Under the pieces are notes generated by a model, which was given only the letters and a program-made list of their open reading frames with translations, made no database searches and was not told the origin of the DNA. Below, in pieces: positions 14,389-34,035 of a DNA stretch of 64,000 bases; position 1 is the stretch's first letter; each line of letters begins with the position of its first letter. Made by a program: the position numbers and the translations under genes. This DNA is from Polytrichum commune (Eukaryota; Streptophyta; Polytrichopsida; Polytrichales; Polytrichaceae), in assembly GCA_950295325.1 (NCBI GenBank), contig OX485804.1, positions 50,022,429 through 50,086,428 of the forward strand, in the 5' to 3' direction.

Positions 14389-15707
14389 AAGGAGGTCACG
14401 GATTCATGGCAGCCTAATAAGGGTCGATTTACACTACGATCAATGGCCCTTGAAACTCCATAACATTACTCACTGATGTGGGTTCATTTTGTGGGCCATG
14501 GGAATATAAGCATGGGAGGTTGGGAGCTTAGTATGAATCCGAGCCATCCTAAGGTTATATTTTCATGGTCTACAGAACGGAAGCACATCATCTAGTGACG
14601 ATGAGTTTTCTACAGGGTGTAGAGTTATTTGTAAAGCTTTGGCATCAAACTCACGCGGAGTTGGCTAAAACATTAGTATGAGAGGTTATGCATAAAGTCA
14701 CCCAAGTATTTTTCATGCTTAGATTATCATATTCAAAGAGCGGTGTAATGTTGTTAATTATCAACTTTCTAGCTTGTCGTACTAAGATGGGTGGGCTGAG
14801 CTCGCCTTTCATAAGTTGATTTGGGATTTAGGGCGGGAGTTCCCATGGTCATACCTTATTTTTGATCCTAATGTTCTCTCCAAGTTTTCGGGATGGCAGG
14901 AGGAGGCCCAAAAAACTTCACCCAACTTTCAAAACAAACGTTAAAACACAACGAGCTAAGTAGTTCTTAATAGAAAGTTTGCTCCCTTTGACGGACTTTA
15001 CGGATATTAACTCTTGTACCATGGACATTGAATTTGAAATTTGCGTCATCACAAGCTAACTTTCAAGTGCAGTGTAAAGACTACTGTTGGATTGGTATAT
15101 AGGCGAGTGGATGGTATTGATACACAAGTTCAATAATGGCTTCAAAAGAACCTACCTTGGTATCAATATTTTGATCATATTCAAATATTGATGCTTTGTG
15201 GGTACTCTGTGGGTATTACAAGATGAAAGATTTTTATTTTTGCCAGACTCATCAATTGGATCAAATGCCATCCTGATCATATTCATATGCGTGATTTGAT
15301 CCTGGCGTGGAGGGTTTTTGAAGTATATGGAAATGAATAGTATCCAAAACAAAAACATTGTCAAATATCTGTACCCTGCTTGTGTATATTATTTTTTGCA
15401 CACTCCTCATTACATATCAATTAGTATAATTTTTTTGACAACTGTCTAGCATAGTAAAAGAAATACCGTGCAACTCAGCTCTCAATCAATTTCTATTTCA
15501 TTAGCATCCTGTTCATTTGAGCCCTTCCACTCTTTAAGTCGAAGTAAATCAAGGATTGTAAGCTTTTGAAGTCTCACGGTCTCCCGATTTTGTATTAGAC
15601 CCACCTCCTTCAACCTTGAGGTAAGCTTGATGCAAGATCCAACCTAGATCAAGGAAAAAAATATCCATTTCATGCTCTGTAGGAGTCCATGTAGATTTCT
15701 CATCCAA
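14389..15707. other. No recognisable gene
   Basis: AT-rich flank of the large transposon. The minus-strand open frame at 15,152-15,364 is short and unfamiliar. Nothing else supported. Confidence 0.4.
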
Positions 15708-15735
15708 AACACTATATTCGTTAATTGGAGACTTT
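15708..15735 (+). repeat. Left terminal inverted repeat of the large transposon
   Basis: 28 bp, AACACTATATTCGTTA followed by A and TTGGAGACTTT. It pairs with 32,975-33,002 with one mismatch (A versus T at position 17). Inside it follows an inner dyad (GAGACTTT..AAAGTCTC). Confidence 0.88.
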
Positions 15736-15989
15736 GGAAAGTCTCAAAATAAATTGGACCCGTAGTTTCGGATGCGAATATTGTGAACGTAGGGAACATG
15801 GGGAACAATGGCAACATAATGTTCGAAAGATCCATATGTGATGAATATATATGTTTCTAAATATAGTAATTATTTGGGGGATAATCAAAACTATGCCAAC
15901 ACAATATTCCAATGTCACAAATTCACAATTATTTTGTATTTTTGATTTTGTATTGAACAAAATTAACGAATCTATAAATAGCCATCTGA

Positions 15990-16225
15990 TTTTATATCTA
16001 GGGACTCTTGGATGCGTATCCCAAACATAACATCTTAGCCAATTGTGGGTGAATTGAACGGCACATCCCAAACGCAACAATATTAAAATAATTTGACAGT
16101 GTGTATAAGAAATTGCAAATTAGCATCTGCAATATAATTATATAGTTTGGACTCCACATCCGTAAACAAAAACATATAAAAAACATTTGATAGCGCATGT
16201 GAAGTTGGATTCCACATCCGTAAAT
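15990..16225. repeat. Left subterminal motif cluster
   Basis: Degenerate half-sites of the element's palindrome: TGGATGCGTATCCCAAAC near 16,010, GGACTCCACATCCGTAAAC near 16,150 and GGATTCCACATCCGTAAAT near 16,208. A matching CGGACTTCCATCCGTAAC occurs near the right end at 32,270. Confidence 0.6.
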
Positions 16226-16364
16226 CAATACAATCATGATATATAATTGTAATCTATAAAATTGCTATAAAATGTGTCTAATATAGTATTCGACCCCAAT
16301 GTCATATATTTCATGAAAAACCAAGACACATTTCAAATAATTGTGGTCCAACCCTACGTCAATA

Positions 16365-19300
16365 TCATTCTCCATCTTCATCTTCAGCTTCATTTCCATT
16401 CTCGACATCGTTTTCTGCAGCAGCAATACGTGCCAAATTGTCTTTGGCAAAATCTATATGTTTTTGGGGGATGGTCATTGTCTCTGATTTGGAACCTTTG
16501 CGTGGTTTCCAAGCACAAAGTATGGTATCTGTGTTTATCCATATTGGTTCGTATGCTGAGTCCATTGTCCATTTGAAACCTTTTTTGGTGTCCCACCCTA
16601 AATATGTGCGGAGCACATTTTGATCTTTGGTGCTAGGACGGCAATATTCCACCTCAATTTGATGAAAATTTGGGCTAGTTGGAACAAAATTTGGTGATGA
16701 CAATGCTTTTACCAACCAAATCGGTTTAGGGTGCTCCTCATCTCCAGGACGTACGAGGATCATATACCCTTCGTAGCAATCAACAGCCACACGAAATGAT
16801 GGAGCCGGACGATTACGAGCTGGGCCAACATAATGGTCGTCCGCTGCGAACTCTTCACGGATGTCCCCATTGTCGAAGAACATGGCCTCAGATTCCACGA
16901 TTGTCACTCGGCTTTGTGGCCAAAAATCTTGTGTCAAACATGAATGTGTTTCGACATCGGGTGCTAGCAATGCTGAGCGAATGCGATCCCAGTACGTAAT
17001 CAATGGTTCGTGGGTATCCCGAACACGCCTTGTGATGTCTTCCTCGCACAATTCTTTCCAATATTGGATGAATCCGGATATACCTTTGATGATTTCTGGT
17101 CCATTCCTCATGGGGTTGGGTTTGCAAGGCTTCGGCTCCCCATCAGGTAGCATACATTTGCCCTCTTCGTTTTGGCGCCATACGAGTATCCCTTCCTCTG
17201 GACCCCAATCCGGGGAAGTGCACAAAACTTTGAATTGCATGGCCGGCAAACCATCATCACGCATATAGTATCGGAATTGTTGAGCCTTGGTATGGCCCAC
17301 TAAACGGTCACCTCCCTTAAGAATGAATGGTTCGATAAACGCTTTGAAATCGGGCACTTCTTCAATCAAATGCGGGATGACTGGCACATTATCCAAATCC
17401 ATGTATGATTTCATGAGAAGAGGAATCGTCGGAAAATCCTCCTCGTGCAACTTCATACTCCAACGTCCAAATGAAGCGTCAATGTCATCATGCGTGTGGC
17501 CAACCATCAAAAAAGACACAAACACTTCTTTGAAAATGCCCTTGGCTACGAGCAATGACCAAAAACAAAACACGTATCGACATTTGTTGTCTTTGGCACA
17601 ATTGTTCAGTTGCACATGTAGAGTTGGAGGCAAAGGTTTAGCAAGAACGGTTTATTCAGGCGGTTCTTGCAGTGACGATAGACATACTTCTTTCCCTTCT
17701 AGCACAGCCTCATAAATCGGTGTTGTTCCACATCCAACAAAAAGAGCGCGAGAGGATGATGTTGGCGGACTCTCAAGATCTCGTAGAAGTTTTGCAAAAG
17801 ACCCTACGGTATGATTGGCGTCGCCTGGATAGAAATCCAAGCCATAATGTGCATACTTGACGTCCACATGGCCATGTGCGATCATACCTGAATTAAGACA
17901 TACAAATGAGAAGTACATTCCAATATCATTTATGATAAGGAAATTCAATTTTTCCGCAAGCATGCCAAGAAAATGAACAAACACTTACGGATGTACATCC
18001 GTAACTCTTAACGATGAGTATGTGGGTTCGCAAAAAAAATGTGAAAACCAACGAACCTGTGACAGATATTGGGAGCTTGAAATATCCATCTGTAGCCTTT
18101 ATTTTCCGTGCATAACAAGGGCACGCAGTCTTCGCATGGTCCATTTTGTCATGAATGATTGTCAAAACCTCATTCGACCTCATTATCGATAATGCGCGAT
18201 TCTTGTAGTAGTCTTGACGGTGTGCCTCTTGGTTGTTGACATGCTCAATGTATTTCCGTTGATGTCTATTGTGCGACTCAGTCCCTATGGGATGTGCATC
18301 TCGAAGGCCCTTGTATTTCTCACAAGCAGAACACCTGGCAAACTTATCCCCAGGCCTCTTCGTAATGTACTCTGCAAATTGTTGATTCTTGATCACACTC
18401 AATTTTGACAACGAAATCGGCCCACATCCAGCCTTTTGGCCAACCTCATTAACATCCATAAGTATGTTCTTCCATTTTGTCCCTGTAGGCAAAACCATCT
18501 GGACAACCTTTTCCCCCGACGGCAGAGTCCGTGTCTTGTGTGGCATCGCATCTGCTAATGGCATAATGATGGTTGATAGTGTTGCAGCTGCTTGGAGTGC
18601 TGCCTCCCTGGGCTTCTTTGTACCAGAGTTGCCATGGAACCGAGAACGCCGTCCTTGCAGCGAGTAGTTCCGGAACCTATAAAAATCTGCCTTTGAAACT
18701 GCATGTATAATGTACCATGCCGTGCAGCATACCTCTATATTTTCCAAGGTCACAACCTTACGACCTTCGGCATCAAAGTGCATGTTGCGATGGACTTCAA
18801 GTTTCTTTGCAGATCGCATCCGAAAGTCCGCAAGCCACATCTCTTGTCTTAAAGATTTGATTTTGTCACGGGGAAATAGTTGGCAACACATTTTTGCACA
18901 ACAATCCTTTGTTGCTACGGACCTAATAGATGTGTCTCCCAATGTTAGATCTCGACGACGTTGCGTGGGTTCACGGGGCACGCGAACGGAATCATATTTA
19001 CGCCGACCTTGTCTAGGACGCATTGTGGCGAACAAAGTCTTTTGTATTTCCTCAAAACGACGTGCATGATTCCACAAGCTGACACCATCGTGAAGAACAC
19101 TTCGCAACGGCCATCGACGAAGAGAGAATCTCCAACCAGGAGGTACTTCCAATGGATGTAAGGAGTTCAAAATGCACACCCCAACATCTTCCTCCCCAAG
19201 GGGATTTGCATCAATACAGTCCATAGGATTTGAGTTCCTACAAACACCATTGGCCACGGGGACGCCGTATCCATTGAATATGACAACATCAAGATCAATC

Positions 19301-19461
19301 CATTGTTCCCGCGAATAACCCTCACATGTTGGTATGAAATCATCCTCTGCATTGGCGACACCAATTGTAGTTTCATGTTCCATGACACCTTCAAATTCGC
19401 TAGCATAGCTTGACGCTTCCGAAGAGAACTCGAATGCACTATCTCGGACGTTGGAATCCAT
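16365..19461 (-). CDS. Transposase-like protein (DUF7869-type), two exons, one internal stop
   Basis: Exon 1 is 19,461-18,057 and exon 2 is 17,887-16,365; the 169-bp intron has GT..AG ends and phase 1. About 975 codons. An upstream in-frame ATG at 19,521 would add 20 residues; I prefer 19,461 (MDSNVRDSAFEF). Seen motifs in order: CCAKMCCQLFPRDK, VCCTAWYIIHAVSKADFYR, FARCSACEKYKGLRDAHPIG, LTIIHDKMDHAKTACP, then across the splice GMIAHGHVDVKYAHYGLDF, LHVQLNNCAKDNKCRY and FLMVGHTHDDIDASFGRWS. This architecture matches DUF7869 proteins, a probable RNase-H-fold transposase family of plant and protist genomes. Two lesions: an in-frame TAA at 17,652-17,654, and QLNN where I expect QLDN (a likely catalytic Asp to Asn). 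The tail is acidic (AEDEDGE). The intron carries the element's palindrome. Probably inactive in this copy. Confidence 0.75.
17985..18004. repeat. Palindrome in the transposase intron
   Basis: TTACGGATGTACATCCGTAA, a perfect 20-bp dyad. Relative to the element consensus it differs at paired positions on both arms, keeping symmetry. Confidence 0.85.
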
Positions 19462-19599
19462 GGCCACTACAAGTGACCCACATGAAGAGTATGTCAAAAT
19501 ATCCCATTCAATAAATGTCATGGATAGTCCTAACGCTTATTGTCAATGAAACACAATGTCAACAATAGTGGATTTCATGGCCTGGAAACAAAGACACAT

Positions 19600-20140
19600 T
19601 GGTATACGAACGCGCGTACATATATCTCCATGTAACAACATTATCAGTGCAAGCACGCGCATACATATGTCTTTATTTGTTCATAGTCGGCGGAAAGGTC
19701 CAGACAACAAAAACATGACAGTTTTATGGGCGCGCACCCGTAAATCTCTTCGTGGTCAAAGAGGTCAATATCATGCGCAAATGTTTTCGCAAACTATACA
19801 ACATAGGTATACGGACGTGCGTCCGCAAACATCCGAATGTCAAAAGTCAGTGTTGTGCAAGACACACAGAGGTTTAGGAAACCAAGATGTCCAGGTGCCA
19901 GGTTCCTACTGTGTATTATGAATGTCAAAATATTATACTATGACACATAGGGTGATGCAAGCTTAGGGTTTAGGGATCTTATACCTCCATTGACCGTACA
20001 GTCTCAATGTAATATTCTACATAGCACATAGTGAAAAGTATGGAACCAAAGGTTTGCAGGTTTACGGATGCGCGTCCGTAAACCTCTCTGTACCTCATTA
20101 CTAGCACAAATAGGTTTAGGTTACTGGACGTGAGTCAGAA
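19600..20140. repeat. Decayed palindrome copies upstream of the transposase gene
   Basis: Imperfect copies near 19,601-19,620 (ACGAACGCGCGTACA), 19,726-19,745, 19,807-19,830 (ACGGACGTGCGTCCGCAAAC), 20,060-20,083 (one mismatch from perfect) and 20,122-20,140 (very decayed). They lie between the transposase start and the regular 95-bp array, in its presumed promoter or 5' leader. Confidence 0.7.
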
Positions 20141-20242
20141 AATTTTCATGACAATACAGTCTCGTTGGTATACTATACATGGCAAGTGGTCATGATGTCA
20201 GCTCAGGTGCAATACCGAACAATGGAACAAAAAGGTGCAAAA

Positions 20243-20646
20243 GTTTACGGACGCGCGTCCGTAAACCTCAATGTAGATGAAATAGGTCAAGTATAATTCT
20301 CACTGCAATAGATATCCAATCAAGCAAGAGGTTAAAGGTTTACGGACGCGCGTCCGTAAACCTTAATGTACATGAAATAGCTGAAGTATAATTCTCACAA
20401 CAATAGATATCCAATCAAGCAAGAGGTTTAAGGTTTACGGATGCGCGTCCGTAAACCTCAATGTAAATGAAATAACTCAAGTATAATTCTCACAGAAATA
20501 CATATCCAATCAAGCAAGAGGTTTAAGGTTTATGGACGCGCGTCCGTAAACCTCAATGTACATGAAATAGCTCAAGTGCAATTCTCACAGAAATAGATAT
20601 CCAACCAAGCAAGAGGTTTAAGGTTTACGGACGCACGTCCGTAAAC
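20243..20646. repeat. 95-bp tandem array, each unit with one palindrome
   Basis: Palindromes start at 20,243, 20,338, 20,433, 20,528 and 20,623, exactly 95 bp apart. Each is GTTTACGG-ACGCGCG-TCCGTAAAC or a one-base variant. The spacer carries CTCAAGTATAATTCTCACAG and ATATCCAATCAAGCAAGAGG. Located about 0.8-1.2 kb upstream of the transposase start codon. Confidence 0.95.
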
Positions 20647-20649
20647 CTC

Positions 20650-21480
20650 CGTGATTTGCGGCGCCATAATAGGACCATTTCACCAGGAACGATACTTGCC
20701 ATAAACAAAAATCAATCACTATAAGGATCCAGACAGTGCAATCCACATAAAAATTGGCTCCACTAATGGGTTTATGGCTTGGAATTTAGTGTTTAGGGTA
20801 TAAAAGGTCCATTGCAATAGGATCTGTACCTGCACGAAATAAACATCCAGAACACTACAAGGGTCCAAGCAGCGCAACCCACATCTGAGATGCAAAAAGA
20901 GTCCCTTGGTGGAGGGGTGTCCCCTTAAGTACTGATCGTTTCCCTTGGATCCGTTTTCCAACATAGGATACTAGCCACCATCTACGTCCTATAAATAAAA
21001 ACCTAACATTACTACATTCCGTGTGCCAGCCTTACAATGGAATGTGTATTCATAGTGGACAACATGCATAGACGATGAGTCCACATAATGACAAAGCAAA
21101 AGGCATCTACGTATTTATGGTGGACAACAAAGAAAATAGGCTAATAATATATGAGCATTGAACATTGTTGAGGGGTGGTTTATAATATTGAAGTACCTAA
21201 TATTGAGAGGTCATTGTAGAACTAGGAGACAGAAAATTATAGTGTCGTGTGAAACATCAACCACAACAACAACAATAGTACATGGAGTATAAAAATACGT
21301 GTCATTCAAAATTAAACTAGCATCTATTTTATTGTTTTGCATACGATGTAATGATATTCACTCCAATATCATGTTATCTCCTCTCATCTAGCATTTAAAC
21401 TAGTAATTACATTTGCCACCACCCTACCATCCAACCCGTTTAATTTACCCACTTTTACACACCTATACATAATTATATTA
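20650..21480. other. Interior of the large transposon; no gene seen
   Basis: A diverged direct duplication spans about 20,700-20,760 and 20,830-20,890 (ACTATAAGGATCCAGACAGTGCAATCCACAT against ACTACAAGGGTCCAAGCAGCGCAACCCACAT, given here only as landmarks 20,720 and 20,855). CCTATAAATA near 20,988 could be a TATA-like element on the plus strand. No open frame of note. Confidence 0.4.
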
Positions 21481-22696
21481 ATACGTACACAAACTTTGAG
21501 CGCCTAGATGCCATGAAAATAGCACATCTATTGTCATAGGCACTATGGGTTGCTTTAAAATCAATATTCTCAATTTCCTCTCTTAACCTTAGGGCCCCCT
21601 TCAATACATCAACATTTATTTCAAAAAAAATAATACTAGCATTCTTAATGTACTATACGTGAGACAAAAAACAATTTTTAGTACCCCATGTACATTATCT
21701 ACAATATTGACTCAAACAATAGCAGTTGTTGTTCTAAGTAACATTATGAGCCCAACAAAGCATAATGGAGAGAAGGGGAGGGTAGGGTATCCAAATATTA
21801 TAAAGGCAAGCAATTTTAAGTTGGTGACAGAAGGGGGATACTCTCATTAGTTCATACGTGGTACCCTAAATCCTAAACCCTAAACCCTAAACCCTAAACC
21901 CTAAACACTATACCCTATACCCTATACCCTATAACCGCCCACCCCTGAACAAACACAACGACATACGGTACGCATGGTTAACTGAATAACTCCCAATACA
22001 TGTGTAGCCTTAAGTGGAAGTAATTCAAAACTATATGACTACCTTTAAATTTTGTAAAATAAAACCATAAACATTTCAAATGTGAAGCAAATTTAGGGGT
22101 AACCTTACCTTTCATTTTTTTAAATCTTTCTTTGGCTTTAAACCATTTGCTTTAAACATATACTTTTGATGAAAGGTTTTGAAGATCGTATATTGGTATT
22201 CTATAATCGAGTCCTAAACACAACTCACCACCGAAAGAAAACTCCAAATATAAACAAGTTTGCTACTACTTATAAGCGATAATACAAGCTGAGGCCTATG
22301 TGTGGAAGGATTGGATGGATCCGAAAGGTTGTTTAATGTACAAGAGGGATGTACATTCAACACATACCCATGCATTTTGTTTTAATACAAGCTTAGACCT
22401 ATGTGTGGAGGGATTGAATTAATCCGTAATGTTGTTTAAGGTATTACAAGCATATGAATTCTCCCCATATCTCGATGTTTCGGTTTTGTTAATTGCGTTT
22501 CACAACTTATTGCGATAATTGAGGGATTCACAAGTATTTCTTGGCAAAGTTTCATGAGAATTTGTGGCCAATTGGTATATTGCCCCAATTGCATTTGAAT
22601 CCCACCTTTGAGAAGAAAAAGAATTCTTATACTGAAGTTAATCACCAAGACATCCTTTTATTGAATATTATTACTATTCTCGAAATATAGAGTCCC
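21480..22696. repeat. Partial R1 copy followed by interstitial telomeric repeat and unassigned DNA
   Basis: 21,480-21,860 resembles part of R1 (CACATCTATTGTCAT, TTAGGGCCCCCTTCAAT, TTCATACGTGG). It runs into the telomere-like block at 21,863. Downstream, 22,280-22,330 and 22,385-22,435 share a short direct repeat (AGCTGAGGCCTATGTGTGG / AGCTTAGACCTATGTGTGG). Probably foreign DNA inserted into the large transposon. Confidence 0.45.
21863..21935. repeat. Interstitial telomere-type repeat (CCCTAAA)n
   Basis: About five CCCTAAA units, the plant telomere repeat, grade into CCCTATA variants. It lies at the end of the partial R1 copy, inside the large transposon. Confidence 0.9.
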
Positions 22697-22704
22697 CTCC
22701 ATAG

Positions 22705-23651
22705 CTCGGGGGGTGCACTGTACTAAACATGTACGAGTCATACGTGAGTGCACAGGAGGGGTATTTATTTGGACCTTGCCGTATTGCATATACATATGGT
22801 ATACATGTTATAATTTATAGTTACGTACATATATGGAAGGCCTTTAAAAAGTATAGAATAATTGTACTTGTATGGTATTGTTACTATACTATATATCATA
22901 AGTGTTCATATTGGATAAGTTTTCATAAGGTTTGGTTTGTTGGGAGAGTTTATAGGATGCGGAGGAAGTTTGGTAATCGTTGGGTGGAGTATAGGGATCC
23001 ATTTGACTTGATGGACCGTCCATCAAACGTGGAGATTGGTTTATGTTGGTATCAAAAGGGGCTAACAACAAGTGGACATATGATCTTATTGATCATTCCA
23101 TGGTAGACTTAGAGACAATAATTGCATTTGTATACTTATGTTAATGACTCTCGGGGGGGGGGGGGGGGCAGTCATTGGTTGGAGTAGCAATATACGTGCA
23201 AACAAATGATAGGGTATTTTAAAAACATGGGGGCAAAAAATTATAAATGGACTTAAGAGTAATATAGGGTATCAAAAATGGCACTGGACATCTTTAAAGT
23301 AGTATAGGGTATGGAATAATTGGTAATTTGGAATTATAAGTAATGCAAGCCATTTTTCTATTAACCCAAAGTAGAAATTTATATAATGATAGCATGTGAA
23401 AAAAATAAGAGAATTGAAAGTAATACCCCCTTATATCCTTATTTTTTTAACACACTGCCCCCCCGAGTAATGACTAATATATATGAATGGATGTTTTTTT
23501 GTGTATACATATTGTCGCTTGTATATTTATTGTTGCAATTGTATGTGTATTACTTCATTTCACAAAAAATCACTTGTATATATTAGGGGGTTTTTAGAGT
23601 ATGCAGTGAACGCACGTGATTCTAGGTTTTAATGAAAGGTGCTCCCCCACT
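22705..23651. mobile_element. hAT-like MITE (TGCACT family), copy 2, nested
   Basis: A 947-bp element with perfect 8-bp target-site duplications CTCCATAG (22,697-22,704 and 23,652-23,659). The left end is CTCGGGGGGTGCACTGTACT; the right end, read inward, is AGTGGGGGAGCACCTTTCAT. It shares inner end segments with the copy at 12,309-12,807 (GTGCACA..GGGGTATT; ACGCACGTGAT..TTTTAATGAA). It contains another MITE at 23,150-23,467 and lies inside the large transposon, so three insertion layers are stacked. An unfamiliar open frame (22,729-23,106) starts just inside the left end. Confidence 0.85.
23150..23467. mobile_element. Poly-G-ended MITE nested in a MITE
   Basis: A 318-bp element flanked by perfect TAATGACT duplications (23,142-23,149 and 23,468-23,475). 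Ends are CTCG plus 16 G in total then CAGT, and the inverted CTCGGGGGGGCAGT. Same terminal type as 686-1,284. Non-coding. Confidence 0.88.
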
Positions 23652-23659
23652 CTCCATAG

Positions 23660-24289
23660 AGGCCACACTAGAAATTGTAGTTAGTTTCTCTCATTGTTTG
23701 GAGTTCCAAAATGATATTATTATTATTATTGATGTCATTTAATTGTTGACAATGACATAATAATTTACTCAACCTCACACCCTAATATAATTTCCTAAAA
23801 TAATGAATACTTTCTAGAGCTCGTATGAATATTTCACTCATTATCAAAAGTGAAGAGAAGAGGCAACGAGATGGCTCATTTTATATTTAGAGTGACATTT
23901 AGTGTGACTTTTAACTTGCCTTAGCATAAACATAAGATGTTATTATGACATAATATGATAATAAAATCACCAAACTAAGTATAAATTAAACCCCTATTTC
24001 AATACCAAATATAGACCAGTAGGGTGATGCCACGTAAGGGTATAGGCCGGCGATTGGGCGCGACGTTTGGGGTAGGGACACGTGGAGGCACGCCATTGTT
24101 TTAGGGTTCCAAGTACTCCAGCACCCTTTCGCCCTCGCTCTTCGTGCTTTTCCTTCCTTCTCTATCATCTCTTCCTTCCGTTCCTTCTACTGTTGCTCTT
24201 GCTTCTCTTGCTTTAGGGTTATAGGGTTTCAAAGTACACCAGCTCCCTTTTGCCCTCCTCTTCGTGCTTTTGCTTCCTTCTCTTGCAGC
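23660..24289. other. Upstream region of the plus-strand transposon genes
   Basis: No coding feature. A direct duplication near 24,100-24,140 and 24,215-24,275 repeats TAGGGTTCCAAGTACTCCAGCACCC against TAGGGTTTCAAAGTACACCAGCTCCC (landmarks only) plus TTTGCCCTC..CTTCGTGCTTTT. This probably holds the promoter of the plus-strand gene set. Confidence 0.4.
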
Positions 24290-24560
24290 TCTTGTTTCTC
24301 TTGTTTCTCTTGTTTCTCTTGTTTCTCTTGCTCATCTGCTCTTGCTTCTCTTGCTCATTTGCTCATCTTCTCTTGCTCATCTGCTCTTGCTCATCTTCTC
24401 TTGCTCATCTTCTCTTGCTCATCTGCTCATCTTCTTTTGCTTCTTTTGCTTCTCTTCACTTTCTTCTCTTGTTTCTCTTGCTTCTTACCCTTATCTTCAC
24501 TTTCTTCTCTCTCTTCTCTTGCTTCCCTTGCTGGTCTTGCTTCTCTTTCCTCACAATGCA
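24290..24560 (+). repeat. Pyrimidine-rich CTCTTG minisatellite, probable leader
   Basis: About 270 bp of TTTCTCTTG, CTCATCTGCTCTTG and CATCTTCTCTTG units without purine runs on the plus strand. CT-rich tracts are typical of plant promoters and 5' leaders. The long Leu/Ser/Cys frames across it are artefacts of the repeat. Confidence 0.75.
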
Positions 24561-25413
24561 AAACTCATTCTTATTGGTCAATTGCTGACGCGCGTCAGAG
24601 CTAGAGTAAGTTCTCCTTGTTTGCTGCTCATTTGCTTATTAGCTCATTAGCTCATTAGTAAGTTTTGCTTGCTGCTTGCTTGCTTGCTGCTCATTAGATC
24701 ATTAGGATGCTCATTGTTGCTTGCTACTGCTCATTAGGTTGTTTTCAGTTGTTGATCTCAGTTGTTGCAAGGGTAATTAGTGTTTCAGATGTTGCTCATT
24801 AGGGTTTCAGTTGTAGCTTCACCATGTAGTTCATTATATTTTTTGCATACAAATCAATAGTTTCCTTTCACTTGTGTTGCATGAATCTGATTTATGAGCA
24901 ACTTTTTTTGAGTAGTTCTCAATGTTGAATCATGCATGTGCACATTGAATTACTAGAGGTTTCTGACCTCAATTTTATTGTTCATTTGCAGTTGGTATTA
25001 GCTGCAGCAGGAGCAGCTAGTTGTGGTTTAGGAGCAAACACTCTAGAAAGGTAAGTTTTTTAGAACATTGCAATTGCATTTTGTATGATTGCAATTTTGG
25101 GTTGTTGTGGTTTAGGGCTTAAGGTTAGCATGAGAGAATGTGAGATTCCAGTTTCAAGGAATTCTGAATTTGTTTAGTACTTTGTCTATGGCTACATTCT
25201 AAGAATCATTTAGTTATGGACATGTCAGTGTTCTGAAAGTGCCTTATGTTGTCAATCTGCAGTGCAGTGTTTGCTATTGCAGTGAAGTAAGATTGCATTC
25301 TTATTTGGAGGGCAAAACCATATTGGACGACAAGGTAAAGTCCCGAAAAACACGGAGCATTAATGAAAACATTGGAATACGCAAACATTACAATAGCCTT
25401 TATAATCCTCAAA

Positions 25414-25842
25414 GTTTACGGACGCGCGTCCGTAAACTTTGTGGATCTTTGTGTAGGTGAGAGACAAGCCTCTCAAACAACATATTACGCAAACGAAGCC
25501 AAATATTGTAATATTAGGCATATTAAAATAGCCTTTATAATACTCAAAGTTTACGGACGCGCGTCCGTAAACTTTGTGGATCTTTGTGTAGGTGAGAAAC
25601 AAGACTCTCAAACCGCATATTACGCAAACGAAGCCAAATATTGTAATATTAGGCATATTAAAATAACCTTTATAATACTCAAAGTTTACGGACGCGCGTC
25701 CGTAAACTTTGTGGATCTTTGGGTAGGTGAGAGAAAAGCCTCTCAAACAATATATTACGCAAACGAAGCCAAATATTGTAATATTAGGCATATTAAAATA
25801 GCCTTTATAATACTCAAAGTTTACGGACGCGCGTCCGTAAAC
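25414..25842. repeat. 135-bp tandem array, each unit with one palindrome
   Basis: Perfect 24-bp palindromes start at 25,414, 25,549, 25,684 and 25,819, exactly 135 bp apart. The spacer carries ACGCAAACGAAGCCAAATAT and TAATATTAGGCATATTAAAA. Three shorter decayed units (GTAGGTGAGAAACAAGACTC) follow to 25,950. Located in the presumed last leader intron of the ParB-like gene. Confidence 0.95.
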
Positions 25843-26000
25843 TTTGTGGATCTTTGTGTAGGTGAGAAACAAGACTCTCAAAAATATATGTAGGTGAGAA
25901 ACAAGACTCTCAAAAAAATGTAGGTGTGAAACAAGACTCTCAAAAAATATTAACCGTAACTTGAATACATTGATATTTACCACCATACTATCTTTGCGAA

Positions 26001-26148
26001 GTTTACGGACGCGCGTCCGTAACTTATAGAGATATTTGAGTATATAATATACACGTTATGCGTATTTGGAAGAAATGTATCTTTTCATTTGGATCCAAAA
26101 ATGTAATTGAGACAATTTGGAAAACTTTACGAACGCGCGTTCGTAAAG
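26001..26148. repeat. Two further palindromes before the ParB-like start codon
   Basis: 26,001-26,024 is the standard form with a clipped right flank. 26,125-26,148 is a compensated variant, TTACGAACGCGCGTTCGTAA, with G to A on one arm and C to T on the other, and a C..G outer pair in place of G..C. Confidence 0.9.
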
Positions 26149-26202
26149 TATGATCTATATCTTTTGCCAAGAATTCTAACTTATCTATCTTATCATTTGC
26201 AG

Positions 26203-28944
26203 ATGGCATCTAAAAAGAGACATGCAATTGAGATGTTCGCAGAAGCTCTCATTCCTCCGCTACCAGAAGCCATCAAAGACATAAGTCCCAACAACCATTA
26301 CAAGCCACAAGATGAAATTGTGGATAATTGGACAGTATTGGTAGAAAAGGACGAGAAAGAAATATTTGTGCTTAGATTTGCATATCAAATGAAGACGGAC
26401 ATAGATGAAGCTGAGAAGTGGATAAAGCTTAAATCGTGGACAGTAGAGTGTGCAGTGGCACAAGGGGATTATGTAGTAATAGACCTTGAGAAGAAAGAAG
26501 ATCGGGTCACTTTCATTTTGCACGAATCCTACCACCCCTTCAACAAAAATGAGTGTGAGAATGCTAGTACAGATGCGGCTTGCTTCAATCTCCAGACGGA
26601 GTTCCAAGACTATGCATGCAATGCACCTTGGACGGGTAAGCGGCTTGGACGACTCTTGAACAATGTAACAAGAGTAAATGGAGCCTTGCTAGAGGCCAGA
26701 AAGGGGAAAGATAAGAAAAAACAAGTCGTTCCTGAACGACCCAAGCGTGTGCCTAAACCAGTGCCGGAATCCTCAAGGCCCTCGCAGAGTGGTGCATCAA
26801 GAGGGAGCAGACAGGCGAGTAAACGCTCTCACTCGCAGATGGACTCTGGACTAACAGAGGGTCCGGATGTCAGCTCTACACTGACTGTCGCTCCACTCCT
26901 CAAAAAGGGTCAACGCCCTGACGCCGAACTCTCAACAAAAATATTCCAAGAGTTCGATGAGAAGACGAAGGGATGCTGGCCCCTTGGCAGGTATTTTACT
27001 TTCGAAGTAGACGTCTACAAATGCCACAAGGGCACCGAAAGTATGAATACCAGAGCAAAAGAAGAAAGCGGTGTATGGTGGCAAATGAACAACATCATGA
27101 ACAACCCCAAGTTTGACAGGCAAACCATTTGTGTGACACTAAAGGATCCTATCGTTGAAGTCAACGAAAAAAATTGGCCGATTCTCAAGAATGGAGAGTT
27201 CTACATTGTCGACGGCCAACATAGTGTAATGGCTGCAAAAGCTCTCCTTGAAGACGACGAGTGGAAAAGCCCATTAAAGGAGACAATCCGATATTGGAAG
27301 GCATTCGTCGTGCATTCCAAGGACTCGAACCAACTCATAGCAATATCTGCCTTCATGAACCAGGGGAATAAAGTGAGGCAGTTCGAGGCTTCATGGGCAG
27401 CCAACATCGTGGCTGGGAGGACCTTGTGGGTGGAGCACGAATGTCCCCCAAAAGAAAGAGATAATGCTGTCGTGAAGAACCCAAAATGGCAGGTATGTTA
27501 CTCAAATAGATTTACGGACGTGCGTCCGTAAATGTGGCCCTTCTCCTCCCACTGATTCAAATATTTGAATTTAATTTGTACTGAATTCAATGTTCTGATT
27601 TCTTGCAATTCGCGCCTCTTGCAGACATTCAGTAATGCCATATTGACAAAGTTCTCGAGTATAGACATGAAGACAAGCGGCATGAAAATAGTGCATGAAT
27701 TAAAAGGCGAACTCAAGCTCATCACTGCAACAGAAGAGACGTGGTCAATGTGGTTGCGACTTTTCGATGCCCACAACAACGGCGACCTTGTCAATCCAGA
27801 TACGGAGAACACCTACAAGAGCGACTCAAAAGTTAAGGTACCACCAATCCTGCGAGAGTTCTTTCGTCCCCTCCAAGGATTGATGGACTCGGAGCTGTAC
27901 AGGGCAGCAGAACACATTCTTCTAGAAACTCCTAGAAGAACTCTGCCCTATCCCAAAATCTTTCTGAAGCGGCCGAAGCACATGAAGCCATCCACGTACC
28001 ACATTAAGGAATGGTGCGATTACAGAAAGAAGAAGACCATGGCTGTAAGGGAGATTAGCAAATTGCTACCCACCCACAACCTCATTAATAGTGATGGTGA
28101 GATCGTGTGGGAGAATTGGAGGAAGCTGAAGGGTGAATACTACATCAATGGCGTCTCAATGCGAGCTTTGATAAGAGGGGCATCATCCTTCCTTGCCCAA
28201 CGATCCAGAAGGAACGAAAAGAAGGGATCCATCGACGAGAGGGAGGCAGGGTTGTATGTTCACTTTCTCGATAGGAAAAAGAACGCGAAATTTGGAGGGT
28301 TTGCATGATTCTGCACGGTCGCAAAGGGCATGAAGTTCGGCGCATGGGACACCCATGCTTCAAGAGCCTCTGTGAGAGATGACCCCAAGGGTTGCCCTTT
28401 CGCCATTTTTGATTTTCGTGCAATTCCCGGAGCATGGAAGCAAAACGTTGCGGGAGCACCCTTCTACGAGCCCTTCTTAAAAGCCTTCAAGAGCTATCGC
28501 TCGCCTGCCCTCTTCGAGCCTCATGTGTGGTTATGGATTGTAGAGCAAGAGAGGTCCACATCCATTGTCCATCTGTACACATCAACGATGGACCTCGAAT
28601 ACGATATGTACCACAGCACCTACATCCCAGCGAAGACAGAAGGGATCACTTTCATTCAAGAGGCAAGGGGGGTGAAGCAAGTGGGAGCTGTGCAGCTTTA
28701 TTTCTTAACACGCAAGTCTTCCCCAACTGGGCGATTGCCCATTAAAGCACACGAGGTGTTCAGGAAAGTCTATTCGTTGCCGCCACCACATCCCAAGGAG
28801 CTTGTTGAGGAGACAATGCATGCAATCTATCCGGCGTTCGAGCTCCGGATGGACTTTTATATAGGGGTCTTGAAGGCTTTAACTGTCATGAGTGAGACAA
28901 TTTACAACGTCTTCGGAGGCACGAAGTTTATGTATGCAGCACTG
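26203..28944 (+). CDS. ParB-like (DGQHS) protein of the large transposon, internal stop
   Basis: Two exons, 26,203-27,492 (430 codons) and 27,625-28,944 (440 codons), both phase 0. The ATG directly follows a TTGCAG acceptor. Residues 1-160 are of unknown fold. Residues about 165-245 form a Lys/Arg/Pro/Ser linker with nuclear-localisation-like runs (KGKDKKKQ, RPKRVPKP). Residues 331-350 read EFYIVDGQHSVMAAKALLED; DGQH(R/S) followed by an Ala-rich helix is the signature of the ParB/Srx-like nuclease/NTPase fold. Exon 2 is Lys/Trp-rich and unrecognised. One in-frame TGA at 28,306-28,308 lies inside otherwise open sequence, most simply a mutated Trp codon. The gene may continue into the coiled-coil and phosphatase exons, since all junctions are phase 0. 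Role in transposition is inferred from location only. Confidence 0.65.
27510..27533. repeat. Palindrome in intron 1 of the ParB-like gene
   Basis: TTACGGACGTGCGTCCGTAA with an A..T outer pair. It lies 18 bp after the donor of a 132-bp intron (27,493-27,624). Confidence 0.88.
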
Positions 28945-28990
28945 GTGAGTATTTGTTTGTCTTTCAACCCACCTATCTTTTGCATAGTTA

Positions 28991-29107
28991 TTTTACGGAC
29001 GCGCGTCCGTAAAAACCCAGTATCAGGTGCATGTGAATTTTACGACCGTGCGTCCGTAAAATTGTCCAAGATTTGAGTGGTGGTTTTACGGACGCGCGTC
29101 CGTATAA
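28991..29107. repeat. Three palindromes in intron 2 of the ParB-like gene
   Basis: 28,991-29,014 is perfect with T..A outer pairs, 29,038-29,062 is a variant (ACGACCGTGCGTCCGT), and 29,084-29,107 is nearly perfect. All lie within the intron that starts at 28,945. Confidence 0.88.
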
Positions 29108-29180
29108 CGTGTTGACATCTAGCCTCATTTATATGCAATCACCACTATTGTTCTTATCTAATTTTCTTGTTATGGTCCAG

Positions 29181-30611
29181 ATGCTTGGCTTGCAGGTGAA
29201 TTCTTTTGTGCAGGATTCCGACTACGATGACGCCCATACTCACAGGGTAATGGCCTCCAAAATGGATATCCAGGACATCATAGACATCCTTACACCCCAT
29301 CCTGTTGTGCCTCTTTCTTCTAGAGAAGAGGCAATGCCCGGAATGGAGACAGACCCTGAAGAGGACCAAGATCCCAGTTCCCCAAGAGCGCAACCCTCCA
29401 CACAGGAGCCTTTACACGGCCTTGTTCGCGACCCAATTAATCCAAGTGCTTTCCTGCTGGGAACAGACGACACGGATGCGCAGGAGGCACACATGAACTT
29501 CACTCCGATAAGGGTCCCTCATACCCCTGTTCTCTCACCTTTTGGGACTCCCACCTCTCGAGTTGGATTTCCCTCAACTGCGGGTCCATCTCGTGCTCCA
29601 GGAGTTATGGCCGAGAAGGATGTGGACCTTGCGGCAGAAGGCGGATGCACCGCTTCATCTGGAGGGGGATCTCAACATTCAGATCTACCCCCTATGGAGG
29701 GGAGGGATGTGCTGGAGTTGATATTGAGGCCTGATATCTCTCTATATCGTGAGAGTCGACGAAAGAGGAACAAGACGCCATACAACGAATACCCTGAAGG
29801 CGCGGTCTTGGAGCTCTCCGATGAAGACGAGGATGAGATTAGGATTCACAATGCCATCTCTGCCTTGCCTACGGAACCTGGCAAGGTGAAGAAAGAGCCG
29901 ATGTCAGTGTCCGAATTGGACGAGAAGATGGAGAGGCGAATGAAGGAAGAGCTTGACCAACGGCTTCGAGAAGCTAACGAGGAGCACGCCAAAAAGATGG
30001 CCGCCATCCAAGCTGAGATGGAGCAAGCTAGGTTGGAGTCTGCTCGAAGGCACGCCGATCTCATGGCCCAAAATCAACAGTTCTTGGCCCAAAGTCAACA
30101 ATTTATGAGCCTGATGCAGAGCTTGCAGGCAAGACCCCCTGTAGTCTATACAGCTCCCGATGCCGTCATGTCTATGCCCCCCACTCTCATGCGGCCTCCG
30201 TCTAGTAGCCATGCGGTGTATATACCCGAGCATGCTTATCCAGCCCCCGCGTTGATTGTCCCGCCCTCTCCCCTTGTTGTCGCCACTCCAGAGGAGCCCT
30301 CCTCTCATCCTACAGGAGTGGAGGAGATACCGGCACGTGACATGGCGGGTGCCGCCGAGATAGATGTCAATGAAGGCAATGCCCCCATCGGCGATGAAGA
30401 TGTACATATGCGGGGCAGCCAAGACTCCACAGATGTGGATCAGCCTTACGTGGATACTCAAGGGTCGCAAGCGGCTGGAGACACCTTGTTGGTGGTCGAA
30501 GATCTGGACAATTTTGCGGACGCGCGTCCGGATCCTGTGCCCATGACGGGGCCAGGTGAGGGAGGCACTGCTGGCGCGGACCTCGCCCTTGAAGAGGTAA
30601 TCAACCTTTGA
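29181..30611 (+). CDS. Coiled-coil, proline-rich protein or exon of the large transposon
   Basis: One long exon. Three in-frame acceptors are possible (ATG after GTCCAG at 29,181, or AG before 29,196 or 29,214); all fit phase 0 from the previous exon. The frame ends at TGA 30,609-30,611, but a GAG|GTAATC donor at 30,596/97 would join it in phase 0 to the phosphatase exon. Residue pattern: acidic, Ser/Pro/Thr-rich N-terminal third; a charged helix with heptads from about 29,910 to 30,130 (ELDEKMERRMKEELDQRL, then EEHAKKMAAIQAEMEQA) ending in Gln/Met-rich MAQNQQFLAQSQQFMSLMQS; then Pro-rich sequence. No enzyme motif. A likely protein-protein interaction module. The palindrome at 30,513 lies in frame here and encodes ADARP. 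Confidence 0.6.
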   Translation: MLGLQVNSFVQDSDYDDAHTHRVMASKMDIQDIIDILTPHPVVPLSSREEAMPGMETDPEEDQDPSSPRAQPSTQEPLHGLVRDPINPSAFLLGTDDTDAQEAHMNFTPIRVPHTPVLSPFGTPTSRVGFPSTAGPSRAPGVMAEKDVDLAAEGGCTASSGGGSQHSDLPPMEGRDVLELILRPDISLYRESRRKRNKTPYNEYPEGAVLELSDEDEDEIRIHNAISALPTEPGKVKKEPMSVSELDEKMERRMKEELDQRLREANEEHAKKMAAIQAEMEQARLESARRHADLMAQNQQFLAQSQQFMSLMQSLQARPPVVYTAPDAVMSMPPTLMRPPSSSHAVYIPEHAYPAPALIVPPSPLVVATPEEPSSHPTGVEEIPARDMAGAAEIDVNEGNAPIGDEDVHMRGSQDSTDVDQPYVDTQGSQAAGDTLLVVEDLDNFADARPDPVPMTGPGEGGTAGADLALEEVINL

Positions 30612-30646
30612 GCATGCCTCCCACGTTACGGACGCGCGTCCAAAAC
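30513..30646. repeat. One palindrome in coding sequence and one in the following intron
   Basis: 30,513-30,534 (TTTGCGGACGCGCGTCCGGA) lies in the coiled-coil exon. 30,625-30,646 (GTTACGGACGCGCGTCCAAA) lies just after its end, in the candidate intron 30,597-30,936. Outer arms are partly decayed in both. Confidence 0.8.
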
Positions 30647-30936
30647 TTCTTTGTCTGCCTCCTTCGTGGCGTGTGTATATTATCGAGTTCAATCCTCGAC
30701 TTCGCCCGGCGGGTGGATACAATTTTGTTAGCATAGATTCCATTAACTTCAACAGATATTTTTTGCGACAATGTATATTATTCACCAAATGTATATCACC
30801 AATTACATTAATACCAATTTTTCAACTGGATGGTTCGGATTATTTTTGGCCTTATAATTTGTGTTGAGTTTATCCATGCTTGTCAATTGGTTTTCTTGAG
30901 TAGTACCATTTACCTAGATAGAATGTTCCATCACAG

Positions 30937-31704
30937 GGTCCGTCGGAGATATGTCGCAACCCCGCGGGAAAACCAAGCGCGCCCATGATGAAACCGTTCA
31001 TAATATTTGACCTCAATGGGGTGCTTTGTCAATCCAAACATATCTCGAATAGTGCGTCCAAGGGGCCCTTCCGTAGTCCACAAGACATGGATTATGGCGG
31101 ACATTTCGATACTCTCATAAATAAGAAGGTTGTACGTGCCCGCCCCGGTTTGAGGAGCTTCCTTCGTGAGGTCCTTGGCTTCGCCCATGTCATCATCTGG
31201 AGCTCTATGCTCATGGACAACACGAAGGCCATCGTCGGTTTCCTTTTCCGAGAACTCGCAATGCCATGCTTGCTTCTCGGTCAAGAACACTGCGATGACC
31301 TCTATGACCGTAGTGGCAATATTGTACCCAAGGTCGGAGGAGGTCGTGGGCCTCAATTCTTAAAGGTCCTGAGGAAGAACCTCTGGGTGGGCGTCCCTAT
31401 GTTGGAGGGGGTTCCCCACGGTTGTTGGCCCACCCCGGATAACACACTCCTCATTGACGACAACCCGGCAAAGAGTATTCTCAATCCCCCGGGCAATTGC
31501 ATATTCCCGGATCCTTGGGAAAGCGATAGAAATGACAACTTTCTAGAGAGTGAACTAGGACCCTACATTAGGAGGCTTGCCTATCACCCCGGAAGTGTCC
31601 CGGATTTTGTGCTCTCCAACCCAATTGGCAATAGGCCTCTAGGCCCACAAGATGAGGAATTTAGGAGATTGTACGGCTACGCTAGACTCAATAAATTAAT
31701 ATGA
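30937..31704 (+). CDS. FCP1-type HAD phosphatase-like protein of the large transposon
   Basis: 256 codons from the CATCACAG acceptor, or about 240 if starting at ATG 30,985 (MMKPFIIFDLNGVLCQ). Seen HAD motifs: FDLNGVL (motif I, usual form DxDGT; the second Asp is Asn as in a group of plant FCP1-like proteins), RPGLRSFLREVLGFAHVIIW then SS (motif II region) and NTLLIDDNPAKS (motif IV acidic pair). The family dephosphorylates Ser/Thr, classically on the RNA polymerase II CTD, acting in the nucleus. Whether this copy is catalytic is unclear because of the Asn. In frame and phase with the preceding exon, so it may be the C-terminal domain of a single large protein. Presence inside a TIR-bounded element suggests captured cargo or a regulator of its own expression. 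Confidence 0.75.
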   Translation, partial: GPSEICRNPAGKPSAPMMKPFIIFDLNGVLCQSKHISNSASKGPFRSPQDMDYGGHFDTLINKKVVRARPGLRSFLREVLGFAHVIIWSSMLMDNTKAIVGFLFRELAMPCLLLGQEHCDDLYDRSGNIVPKVGGGRGPQFLKVLRKNLWVGVPMLEGVPHGCWPTPDNTLLIDDNPAKSILNPPGNCIFPDPWESDRNDNFLESELGPYIRRLAYHPGSVPDFVLSNPIGNRPLGPQDEEFRRLYGYARLNKLI

Positions 31705-31873
31705 AAACTTTGATGATTTTGGGTTTGTACTTGGACTCTCCATGTAAATATCTAACATTTCTCCCCTTATCTTTGTAATGTATTTTTGTGTCTTAGTTGC
31801 CTCACCAAGCACCCAAAAGTGTCGTCAATGGCATGTCTGCATCTCAGGCAGACACCGGCTCCCTTTCCCTGGT

Positions 31874-32692
31874 ATGAGCGACGTTGCAATGCCTTCACTA
31901 TTCCAATATTCGGCCGTCGATGCTGCCTCTGCTGTTGATTACTCCAAAGACTCCGGGTTTGAAGACGGAGTCGTGGATAGCCCTCCTGCAAAGGTTGCAA
32001 AACTCAATTACTCTCCAAGTCCATCTCCATCTCCCCTCCGCAGTGAGAAGCACGTCCGTAACCCATGGTCGACCAGACGCCTTTGCATGGATGAACCCCA
32101 AATTGATGTCCCGGCGTTTGCGAACGTCCCTCTCGAGCTTGTATCTACACCCGTCGATGTCCCAAAAGCTCTAACTAGCGCCCCAAAGGCGAAGGTGCCC
32201 AACTATTGGCATTCTCAAGTTTTTCCTTGATGATTTCCGTGTATTAGTGCATTTCAACTTCTTGGGTTTTTCGGACTTCCATCCGTAACTTGTAACCACT
32301 TATACTAACCCACTTCATTATATATATTTATGGTCATTGTTCAGACCCCAATGTACACGAATGTGGGCCGGGCATCATCGACTTCGTCATTGGATAGGCG
32401 AACACTGAAGACAGCTTCTTGCGAGTCTGATCGTTGTTTGGCCCTACGGAAGAGTGCAAGACGTTCGGTTTCCCAAACGCATTCGTATTCCACTTATTCG
32501 GAAGGGGGTCGGCAAATATGGGCAAATGGCGCATATTCGGGGTCAACAAATAAACAAGGTTACAGCCGCGGACCCGAGATCTTTAGAGCCATGGAGGCCA
32601 TGAAAGCAAAGGAACGTGAAACGGCCGTAAATGCTAATAATAGTATTGCAAAAGCAAAAGTAGTGAGTCGTAATCATGATCCGAACGTATAG
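31874..32692 (+). CDS. Small serine-rich basic protein of the large transposon
   Basis: Two exons, 31,874-32,218 and 32,345-32,692, joined in phase 0 (CAA|GT donor, TTCAG acceptor), about 230 residues. The upstream frame is open from 31,778, so an earlier exon is possible. The N-terminal half has SPSPSPSP and proline/valine runs; the C-terminal half is Ser/Arg/Lys-rich (KSARRSVSQ, EAMKAKERETAVNANNSIAK). No known domain. The 126-bp intron contains a decayed palindrome (CGGACTTCCATCCGTAAC). Possibly a DNA- or RNA-binding accessory protein. Confidence 0.45.
32268..32288. repeat. Decayed palindrome near the right end
   Basis: TCGGACTTCCATCCGTAAC, in the intron of the small gene. It resembles the left subterminal half-sites near 16,150 and 16,208. 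Confidence 0.6.
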
Positions 32693-32974
32693 GCTATATT
32701 AACATACATGTAGTTGTGGAATTATGTTTCTAGGACTTTCGCCTAATATTGGATATTCCACTTGCATTTTGTACTTCAACCCCTATTCAATAAATATGAT
32801 ATTGATTTTCCATATGCAAATGTTTTCATATATCCCATTTTCTTATTGTTAATGTGTAGTTCCATGCATTTGAGTCTCTTATTTGTTTCCAAAATTGGGA
32901 ACATAGCATATTTTTAGTGTTTTCATTCCTATAAATGTGAAAGCCACGTCCTTAAATAGTCTCAAAATTAACAA

Positions 32975-33002
32975 AAAGTCTCCAAATAACGAATATAGTG
33001 TT
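32975..33002 (-). repeat. Right terminal inverted repeat of the large transposon
   Basis: 28 bp ending CGAATATAGTGTT, complementary to 15,708-15,735 with one mismatch. Followed by CCAA, which also precedes the left end. Confidence 0.88.
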
Positions 33003-33044
33003 CCAATATAAATACAAGACAATTTCTTGGTCCTTAGATCCTAA

Positions 33045-33150
33045 AGCTTAAGTGTAAAGTGAGTGGGATGGTCTCGGCCTTTTCCACCGATGAGAAATTT
33101 AAGATTTCAATGGTCATGGGCCCTTAAGCTCTAGTGCCCCTCTAGTGTCG
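33045..33150 (+). repeat. R3 dispersed repeat copy
   Basis: AGTGAGTGGGATGGTCTCGG, then TTTTCCACCGATGAGAAAT and CAATGGTCATGGGCC, alignable with 10,880-10,985 and, reversed, with about 49,255-49,345. Lies just outside the large transposon. Confidence 0.55.
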
Positions 33151-33504
33151 AGTGCCCCCTTGGACTTAAGAAAACCACACAATTAATTTCTTTCAAGATA
33201 TTTGTTATGGGACACAATACAACCTCATCAATGTAATAAATCTTTAATTGTTCTTGAAATATGTTATGGGACATAACGATGAACCATTTTCTTTGGCACT
33301 ATATATATATCCAGTTTAATGCAATGTGTAGTGCAGGCCTCCTAAAATGTGTCATTCTATTTTTAGATGACACATTTAGATAATATAAGGTATTTTGGAT
33401 GCCAAAAATAAGAAGTGAATGTTTTGTTCGTAAACGCTGCGCAGACGTGTCATTGGAGGTGGTCTCTATTATGACACTACCGTCGATGACTAAAACCTGA
33501 TCAA

Positions 33505-34035
33505 ATGTTGATCATGAAGGAGATTGCTCATTTCGGATTGAAACTAGTGCAAGGTATATCAATTGTTCAGGCTGAGCGCGACTCGAATAACGAGGTTGCA
33601 CTCAATCTCGCTCCTCCTGTAATGTTGTTCCAGCTTGTTGAGATGGCACCGTGCGATTTCATTGATTCAGTTCTCGATCCATATCGAAGTCAATTGGCAA
33701 AGTTTTGGCCTGATGAGAAGATTGATCTCATTGAACGACATCAACATGAACTCTTTAAAGCTTACAAGAGGGAACCCGGCTCCAAGCTCCTCATTGATAA
33801 GCAAGATCATACAACGTTCTTCAATACGGGATGGGATGATATGAAGGGACGCTTTGAGCATTTGCGAATGTTCTGCGGTGGATTGGCAAATACTTTCACC
33901 AACACAACAAGCATTGAGTCGGATTTTAGCATTCTGAAATGGGAAAATGATGACTTTTGATAGTCAATGATGAACCTGGTGTTGGAGGGCATCTTTTAGG
34001 CCAAGCAACGTTGTGTTGTGATGGGAATTCCTGTT
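33505..34035 (+). pseudogene. Decayed hAT-like transposase C-terminal fragment
   Basis: Open from 33,505 to a TGA at 33,958. After two adjacent stops and one more, the same frame still reads SMMNLVLEGIF..AKQRC. Motifs: SIVQAERDSNNEVALNLAPP, PVMLFQLVEMAP, FCGGLANTFTNTTSIESDFS. The last resembles the conserved C-terminal region of a group of hAT-like transposases (NT..VESDFS). No N-terminal part is visible upstream. A dead fragment. Confidence 0.5.

Follow-up and report, generated by a model that had tools for sequence, protein, structure and literature searches.

A 17.3-kb multi-gene DNA transposon of the moss Polytrichum commune, probably a large Sola member, with an accessory gene set and its own palindromes

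The stretch of Polytrichum commune DNA analysed here, called the window throughout, comprises 64,000 nucleotides of contig OX485804.1 (assembly GCA_950295325.1, positions 50,022,429 to 50,086,428 of the forward strand). It harbors a 17.3-kb element bounded by two 28-bp terminal inverted repeats (TIRs), which are complementary at 27 of 28 positions (96%) and carry CCAA directly outside each arm, as an initial annotation made from the sequence alone had described. Between the TIRs lie two divergent genes, a transposase-like gene (T) on the left and a three-exon reading frame (R1) on the right, the latter followed by an FCP1-like and small proteins. Palindromes are located upstream of both genes and in their introns (Table 1). 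In our view (probability about 0.72), this is a cut-and-paste DNA transposon that exists in many copies, was active recently and carries an accessory gene set; it most likely belongs to the Sola superfamily as one of its large members.

Table 1. Positions of the transposon features in the window.
Feature	Position	Strand	Evidence
Target site duplication (TSD), left copy CCAA	15704..15707	.	Joined flanks with a single CCAA match element-free places
Left TIR, AACACTATATTCGTTAATTGGAGACTTT	15708..15735	+	Genome pattern search and copy comparison
T exon 2, which contains DUF7869 and two candidate catalytic Asp	16365..17887	-	Pfam PF25273, 1.6e-35
T intron, 169 bp, with a related perfect palindrome at 17985-18004	17888..18056	-	Splice sites inferred from phase
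T exon 1, containing the first candidate catalytic Asp close to the exon end	18057..19461	-	Gene model
Array of nine palindromes upstream of T (<=5 mismatches to TTTACGGACGCGCGTCCGTAAA), with 95-bp spacing among the last five	19603..20645	.	
Array of six palindromes upstream of R1, with 135-bp spacing among the first four	25415..26147	.	
R1 exon 1, with a motif (FYIVDGQHSVMAAKALL) resembling ParB/Srx or DGQHR; domain unconfirmed	26203..27492	+	Open frame, phase-0 splice signals
Palindrome in R1 intron 1	27511..27532	.	
R1 exon 2, with a domain resembling beta-class DNA methyltransferases (DFRxxPG; VWLWIV; open copies read SETVYNVFGGTKFMYAA)	27625..28944	+	
Three palindromes in R1 intron 2	28992..29106	.	
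R1 exon 3, probable end of methyltransferase-like domain (MLGLQVNSFV...), then Pro/Ser-rich and coiled-coil-like tail	29181..30611	+	
Weak palindrome within R1 exon 3 coding part	30513..30534		
Palindrome just after R1 exon 3	30625..30646		
FCP1/NLI-interacting-factor-like (HAD) protein; may be spliced to an upstream exon	30985..31704	+	Pfam PF03031, 3.8e-13
Small protein, 5' exon	31796..32230	+	dN/dS 0.26-0.27 between subfamilies
Small basic protein, probably a 3' exon, under weak constraint	32346..32692	+	dN/dS 0.54-0.56
Right TIR	32975..33002	-	Same type of evidence as left arm
TSD, right copy CCAA	33003..33006	.	Copy comparison

The initial annotation had proposed searching the genome with the terminus for pairs. 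In the 408 Mb of the 64 contigs searched, the terminus occurred with up to two mismatches at 1986 places (987 + 999), while the reversed pattern used as control gave none, which rules out a chance inverted-repeat pair. Pairing was determined for 100 listed zero-mismatch termini out of the 1986. These formed 26 adjacent facing pairs less than 60 kb apart, 19 of which were spaced by 16.5-18.3 kb. Ten further copies, all picked from facing terminus pairs, were fetched as halves, and in each case a perfect duplication of 4 bp adjoined the outer side of AACACTATATTCG..CGAATATAGTGTT. The same was true of four additional terminus pairs, so that 15 of 15 insertions including the window copy are flanked by duplications; these represent 14 different, rather A+T-rich sequences. 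Seven of the fetched copies were approx. 99% identical to the window copy and one was 94-97% identical. The other two belong to a diverged subfamily with about 77-90% identity in alignable pieces.

Places lacking the element were found as well. When the window flanks were joined with a single CCAA (343 bases), 40 matches were scored out of 853 candidates. Two of these were the window's own flanks, and the remaining 38 of 38 crossed the junction with 70-77% identity. All six junction matches that were aligned continue through the junction without the element, with CCAT in five and GCAT in one compared to CCAA in the window; 9 bases just downstream of the junction are absent from all six. Since the flanks (about 15550-15707 and 33003-33190) match at least 38 other places, the element sits in a dispersed repeat. 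It is thus diverged paralogs, and not an allele, that display the empty state.

Independent occurrence of the left and right halves, which the initial annotation had named as an argument against a single element, was not supported. A 32-mer of the left gene was present at 128 places in the genome and a 32-mer of the FCP1-like gene at 127 (up to three mismatches; control 0 for each); linkage was counted with 100 listed markers of each kind. A right-gene marker in the same orientation was located within 20 kb of 67 of the 98 listed left-gene markers that could be judged (median distance 13.5 kb) and within 50 kb of 79, compared to 0.29 expected at random. No listed partner within 50 kb was found for 19 of the 98 left-gene markers, and 20 of 100 right-gene markers lacked a listed left one; some partners may be unlisted, as 100 of the 128 left-gene and 100 of the 127 right-gene markers are on the lists. 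Truncated or rearranged copies likely exist besides intact ones. In the stretch covered by the termini list, a right terminus without mismatches was present within 2 kb of 24 of the 45 listed FCP1 markers, usually at a distance of 1735 bp. The linkage of both markers and the proximity of FCP1 markers to the right terminus therefore indicate that the gene set moves as a unit. As the 1986 termini by far outnumber the approx. 128 gene-bearing copies, many copies must be deleted or fragmentary.

The left gene had been annotated as transposase-like of the DUF7869 type, and the match to PF25273 bears this out. DUF7869 is the sole Pfam match of T, which is 975 amino acids long in open-frame copies and has named relatives in Ceratodon purpureus, Physcomitrium patens and Riccia sorocarpa. 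A structure model of a T homolog displayed an RNase H fold, so the DUF7869 transposase is predicted to be a DDD enzyme with this fold. Between candidate aspartates two and three lie 42 residues (alignment positions 546-588), an interval in which inspection revealed no pairing of C(2)C with H(3-4)H. Profile searches with T gave no informative match. In the window copy, T contains a premature stop at about 17652-17654 and an asparagine at the second candidate catalytic aspartate (HVQLNN stretch). R1 exon 2 is interrupted by a stop at 28306-28308 that occurs in the window copy only, among 11 copies compared. Judged from these lesions in both main genes, the window copy is inactivated; open-frame copies are present elsewhere in the genome. 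Two observations concern relatives of T. Residues 811-928 of the homolog P0001 match MazF and BAH-type folds in the model (7lmm BAH; 5znr PtSHL), a possible chromatin-reading module, and residues 19-70 of P0087 show a sub-threshold match to Transposase_23 (TNP1/EN/SPM; 6.6e-04).

On the right side, the initial annotation had listed ParB-like and coiled-coil proteins. These open reading frames (ORFs) are exons of one reading frame, R1, rather than separate proteins. For exon 1, the homolog P0096 gave sub-threshold matches to PHROG1033 (0.096) and PF20188 (0.03) at one motif, where the model had a predicted local distance difference test (pLDDT) score below 50. A profile search with exons 2 and 3 detected 62 relatives, 56 of them over exon 2, while six cover only 9-11% of the query. 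The predicted fold of residues 640-863 of an R1 homolog (a model that excludes exon 3) resembles that of the beta-class N6-adenine (N6A)/N4-cytosine (N4C) methyltransferases M.MboIIA, CcrM and RsrI, of Tetrahymena MTA1 and of rotifer N4CMT. R1 is therefore predicted to contain a beta-class DNA-methyltransferase-type domain, which the initial annotation had overlooked. Active enzymes of this class carry a DPPY-type motif. Three alignments were made: one with 31 of the 62 relatives, one in which 26 of these were combined with pieces of the window, and one of 22 together with two manually entered sequences. In those of 31 and 24 sequences, DFR was invariant at the strand of the DPPY motif and a DPPY/W-type catalytic motif was absent. 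In contrast to the five enzymes named above, R1 exhibits DFRxxPG in place of the DPPY-type motif and NVFGGxK at the S-adenosylmethionine motif. Because of this replacement, R1 possibly reads DNA with a domain derived from a methyltransferase instead of acting as an enzyme. No sequence-profile link from R1 to beta-class methyltransferases was detected; PDB sequence and profile searches with R1 and hhalign against E. coli YhdJ (minus its last residues) were uninformative.

The FCP1-phosphatase-type gene was confirmed by a PF03031 score of 49.8 bits against a cut-off of 21.8; TIGR02251 matched with 6.7e-07, under its cut-off. The canonical HAD motif is DxDxT. All 11 of 11 copies read DLNGVL, retaining the first aspartate with asparagine at the second. 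A PDB search with this protein yielded nothing informative. Other Pfam matches were below cut-off and not used (YEATS 0.02 in R1 exon 1; Sigma70_ner 0.047; DUF7002 0.0071; Viral_alk_exo 0.29 in a small ORF).

Variants of TTTACGGACGCGCGTCCGTAAA with up to five mismatches occur at 21 sites in the element and at none in the rest of the window. A palindrome shared by both halves and absent elsewhere in the window had been noticed before; its placement in introns and ahead of the two divergent genes had been missed. With at most one mismatch, the palindrome was found at 1641 sites in the genome (control 0). Of the 53 distinct sites that were listed, which all belong to a single contig, 52 lie inward of a zero-mismatch terminus at a distance of no more than 30 kb. 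By these counts, the palindromes are almost confined to the element. The diverged subfamily possesses an identical palindrome core with different spacing. Beyond the core the symmetry continues: at three flanking positions, pairing was seen in 48-50 of the 73 distinct sites compared to 28-29 expected from column composition, in a sample of 125 sites from five copies in which tandem copying may inflate the flanks. Pairing within the core is not clearly above expectation because its positions hardly vary. In translated sequence, the ends of several R1 relatives look like read-through of the palindrome (e.g. YERSFV, FTNARS). Unrelated perfect palindromes lie outside the element at 60304-60327 (24 bp) and 9984-10005 (22 bp).

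The ratio of nonsynonymous to synonymous substitution rates (dN/dS) was calculated according to Nei-Gojobori between the window copy and the diverged subfamily, with exon bounds approximate by a few bases. The values of 0.13-0.20 for T, 0.09-0.13 for R1 exons 1-2, 0.22-0.25 for R1 exon 3 and 0.15 for the FCP1-like gene (small exons in Table 1) are upper-biased averages because some compared copies are broken. Ratios against a close copy (L053) scattered from 0.07 to 0.69 on few changes. Taken together, the boundaries, the 4-bp duplications, the movement of both halves as a unit of about 17.3 kb and the presence of open accessory genes with low dN/dS are demonstrated at the level of sequence. 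Synonymous divergence (dS) between the subfamilies was 1.35-1.66 in R1 exons 1-2, 0.79-0.87 in R1 exon 3, 0.28-0.35 in T and 0.42-0.46 in the FCP1-like gene, and in R1 exons 1-2 (26203-28944) it was thus four to five times that in T. The higher value in R1 than in T and FCP1 suggests that the R1 block was exchanged between element subfamilies.

Further features of the region are plant-telomere-like ACCCTAA repeats between the two divergent genes (21863-21932), a low-complexity CTCTTG-type tandem repeat (24160-24551) inside the element, and, directly to its right, an ORF (33490-33960) ending in TTSIESDFSILKWENDDF, which by its motif presumably resembles a hAT-type transposase remnant.

Sola elements are described as having a DDD transposase and 4-bp duplications; most measure 2-9 kb, some exceed 15 kb, and they are present in Physcomitrella (PMC10741241, PMC9033089). 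Compared by description, the P. commune element resembles Sola, in particular Sola1 of Physcomitrella, in its predicted DDD transposase, the 4-bp duplication found in 15 of 15 insertions, its moss host and a size above 15 kb. It differs by the ParB/methyltransferase and FCP1 genes and the palindromes, which the consulted portions of these two sources do not mention for Sola. The initial annotation was right about a multi-gene DNA transposon with a DUF7869 transposase-like gene, a 4-bp duplication and shared palindromes, but "unassigned superfamily" was probably too strong. An unnamed DUF7869 superfamily distinct from Sola, as suggested there, appears to us a doubtful though serious alternative. 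DUF7869 was not found in the literature searched and T matches no other Pfam family; against this, the predicted DDD core, the 4-bp TSD and the moss host coincide with the description of Sola. Literature searches on DUF7869, moss transposons with ParB or methyltransferase genes, moss TIR transposons and Sola returned no such gene set, in line with the earlier remark that no described element with it was known; the original Sola paper lies outside this search, and a Physcomitrella Sola with these genes may be in Repbase.

The accessory genes might also be mere passengers, captured from the host or from bacteria and of no use to the element. In favor of this, the last small exon is weakly constrained and the ratios against L053 scatter. 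We regard this as unlikely in view of the low dN/dS of R1 and FCP1 between subfamilies, the continued linkage of the FCP1 marker to T and the 62 relatives of R1.

Kinship with CACTA/En-Spm elements, of which the initial annotation had been reminded but which it found not to fit, is very improbable. It would account for the large size, the multiple genes, the CACTA that starts at the third terminal base, the repeated internal palindromes and the TNP1-like N-terminus of P0087. EnSpm/CACTA elements generate 3-bp duplications and end in CA..TG, in contrast to the 4-bp duplications in 15 of 15 insertions and the AACACTA (AA..TT) termini observed here. Moreover, DUF7869 is the only Pfam match of T. 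A 4-bp duplication does fall into the 2-5 bp range of the wider CMCT clade, but the C(2)C + H(3-4)H hallmark of that clade between the second D and the last catalytic residue, as given in the part of PMC12730594 consulted, is not seen in the 42-residue interval of T. Kyakuja-Dileera-Zisupton (KDZ) elements were rejected, since a Dileera family is described with an 8-bp TSD (PMC12730594), compared to the 4 bp observed here. An endogenous large DNA virus or Maverick-like virus-transposon, to which size, multi-gene content and the sub-threshold Viral_alk_exo match might point, can be dismissed: no polymerase, packaging or capsid family exceeded the cut-off among the ORFs scanned, searches of viral contigs with T and with R1 exons 2-3 yielded no relatives, and the short TIRs are flanked by a 4-bp TSD.

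In a Sola-like cut-and-paste transposon, T would bind the observed 28-bp ends, cut and insert with a 4-bp stagger that leaves the observed duplications. R1 would bind the palindromes upstream of both divergent genes, thereby controlling transcription and/or marking or protecting element DNA against host silencing. We infer that R1 has this role, as a regulator or shield bound to the palindromes, on the basis of co-occurrence, position and conservation. Transcription of the element may be a target of the FCP1-like protein. More tentatively, the ParB-like/methyltransferase-fold fusion could constitute an element-encoded self-recognition or epigenetic system. Loading onto parS-like palindromes in introns and at the two promoters, it would either methylate element DNA (N6A or N4C, both unusual in land plants) or, more likely, read it or shield it from host silencing. 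Methylation is the less likely option because the DPPY motif is lost.

Partly comparable features are described for other transposons. VANDAL elements encode the anti-silencing protein VANC, which is proposed to act via short motifs repeated in their own non-coding DNA; they differ from the present element by a MuDR-type transposase, a longer TSD and the lack of a methyltransferase fold. Fungal DNA transposons of several superfamilies carry TET/JBP genes proposed to counter silencing (PMC12730594). Their DNA-modification gene, comparable to the predicted methyltransferase-type domain of R1, encodes a dioxygenase and occurs in other superfamilies and in fungi, and the consulted part of that source describes no palindromes for them. 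The composite-like KolobokP and KolobokD combine a transposase with accessory nuclease genes, KolobokP being reported from animal phyla; a methyltransferase-fold gene is not mentioned for Kolobok in the part of PMC9587614 consulted. If the self-recognition model holds, bacterial ParB-parS and the TET-carrying fungal elements would have a counterpart in this moss transposon.

To our knowledge, few descriptions exist of large plant DNA transposons other than CACTA and Mutator, and fewest of Sola-type elements in bryophytes. Our results suggest that the present element carries its own DNA-recognition or anti-silencing kit. If true, a methyltransferase-fold protein under selection together with the palindromes would provide a testable case of transposon self-regulation or of hiding from host silencing, and might represent a possible route for bacterial-type DNA methyltransferases into eukaryotic genomes. 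Furthermore, Pfam DUF7869 would gain a likely identity as DDD transposase, at least in bryophytes.

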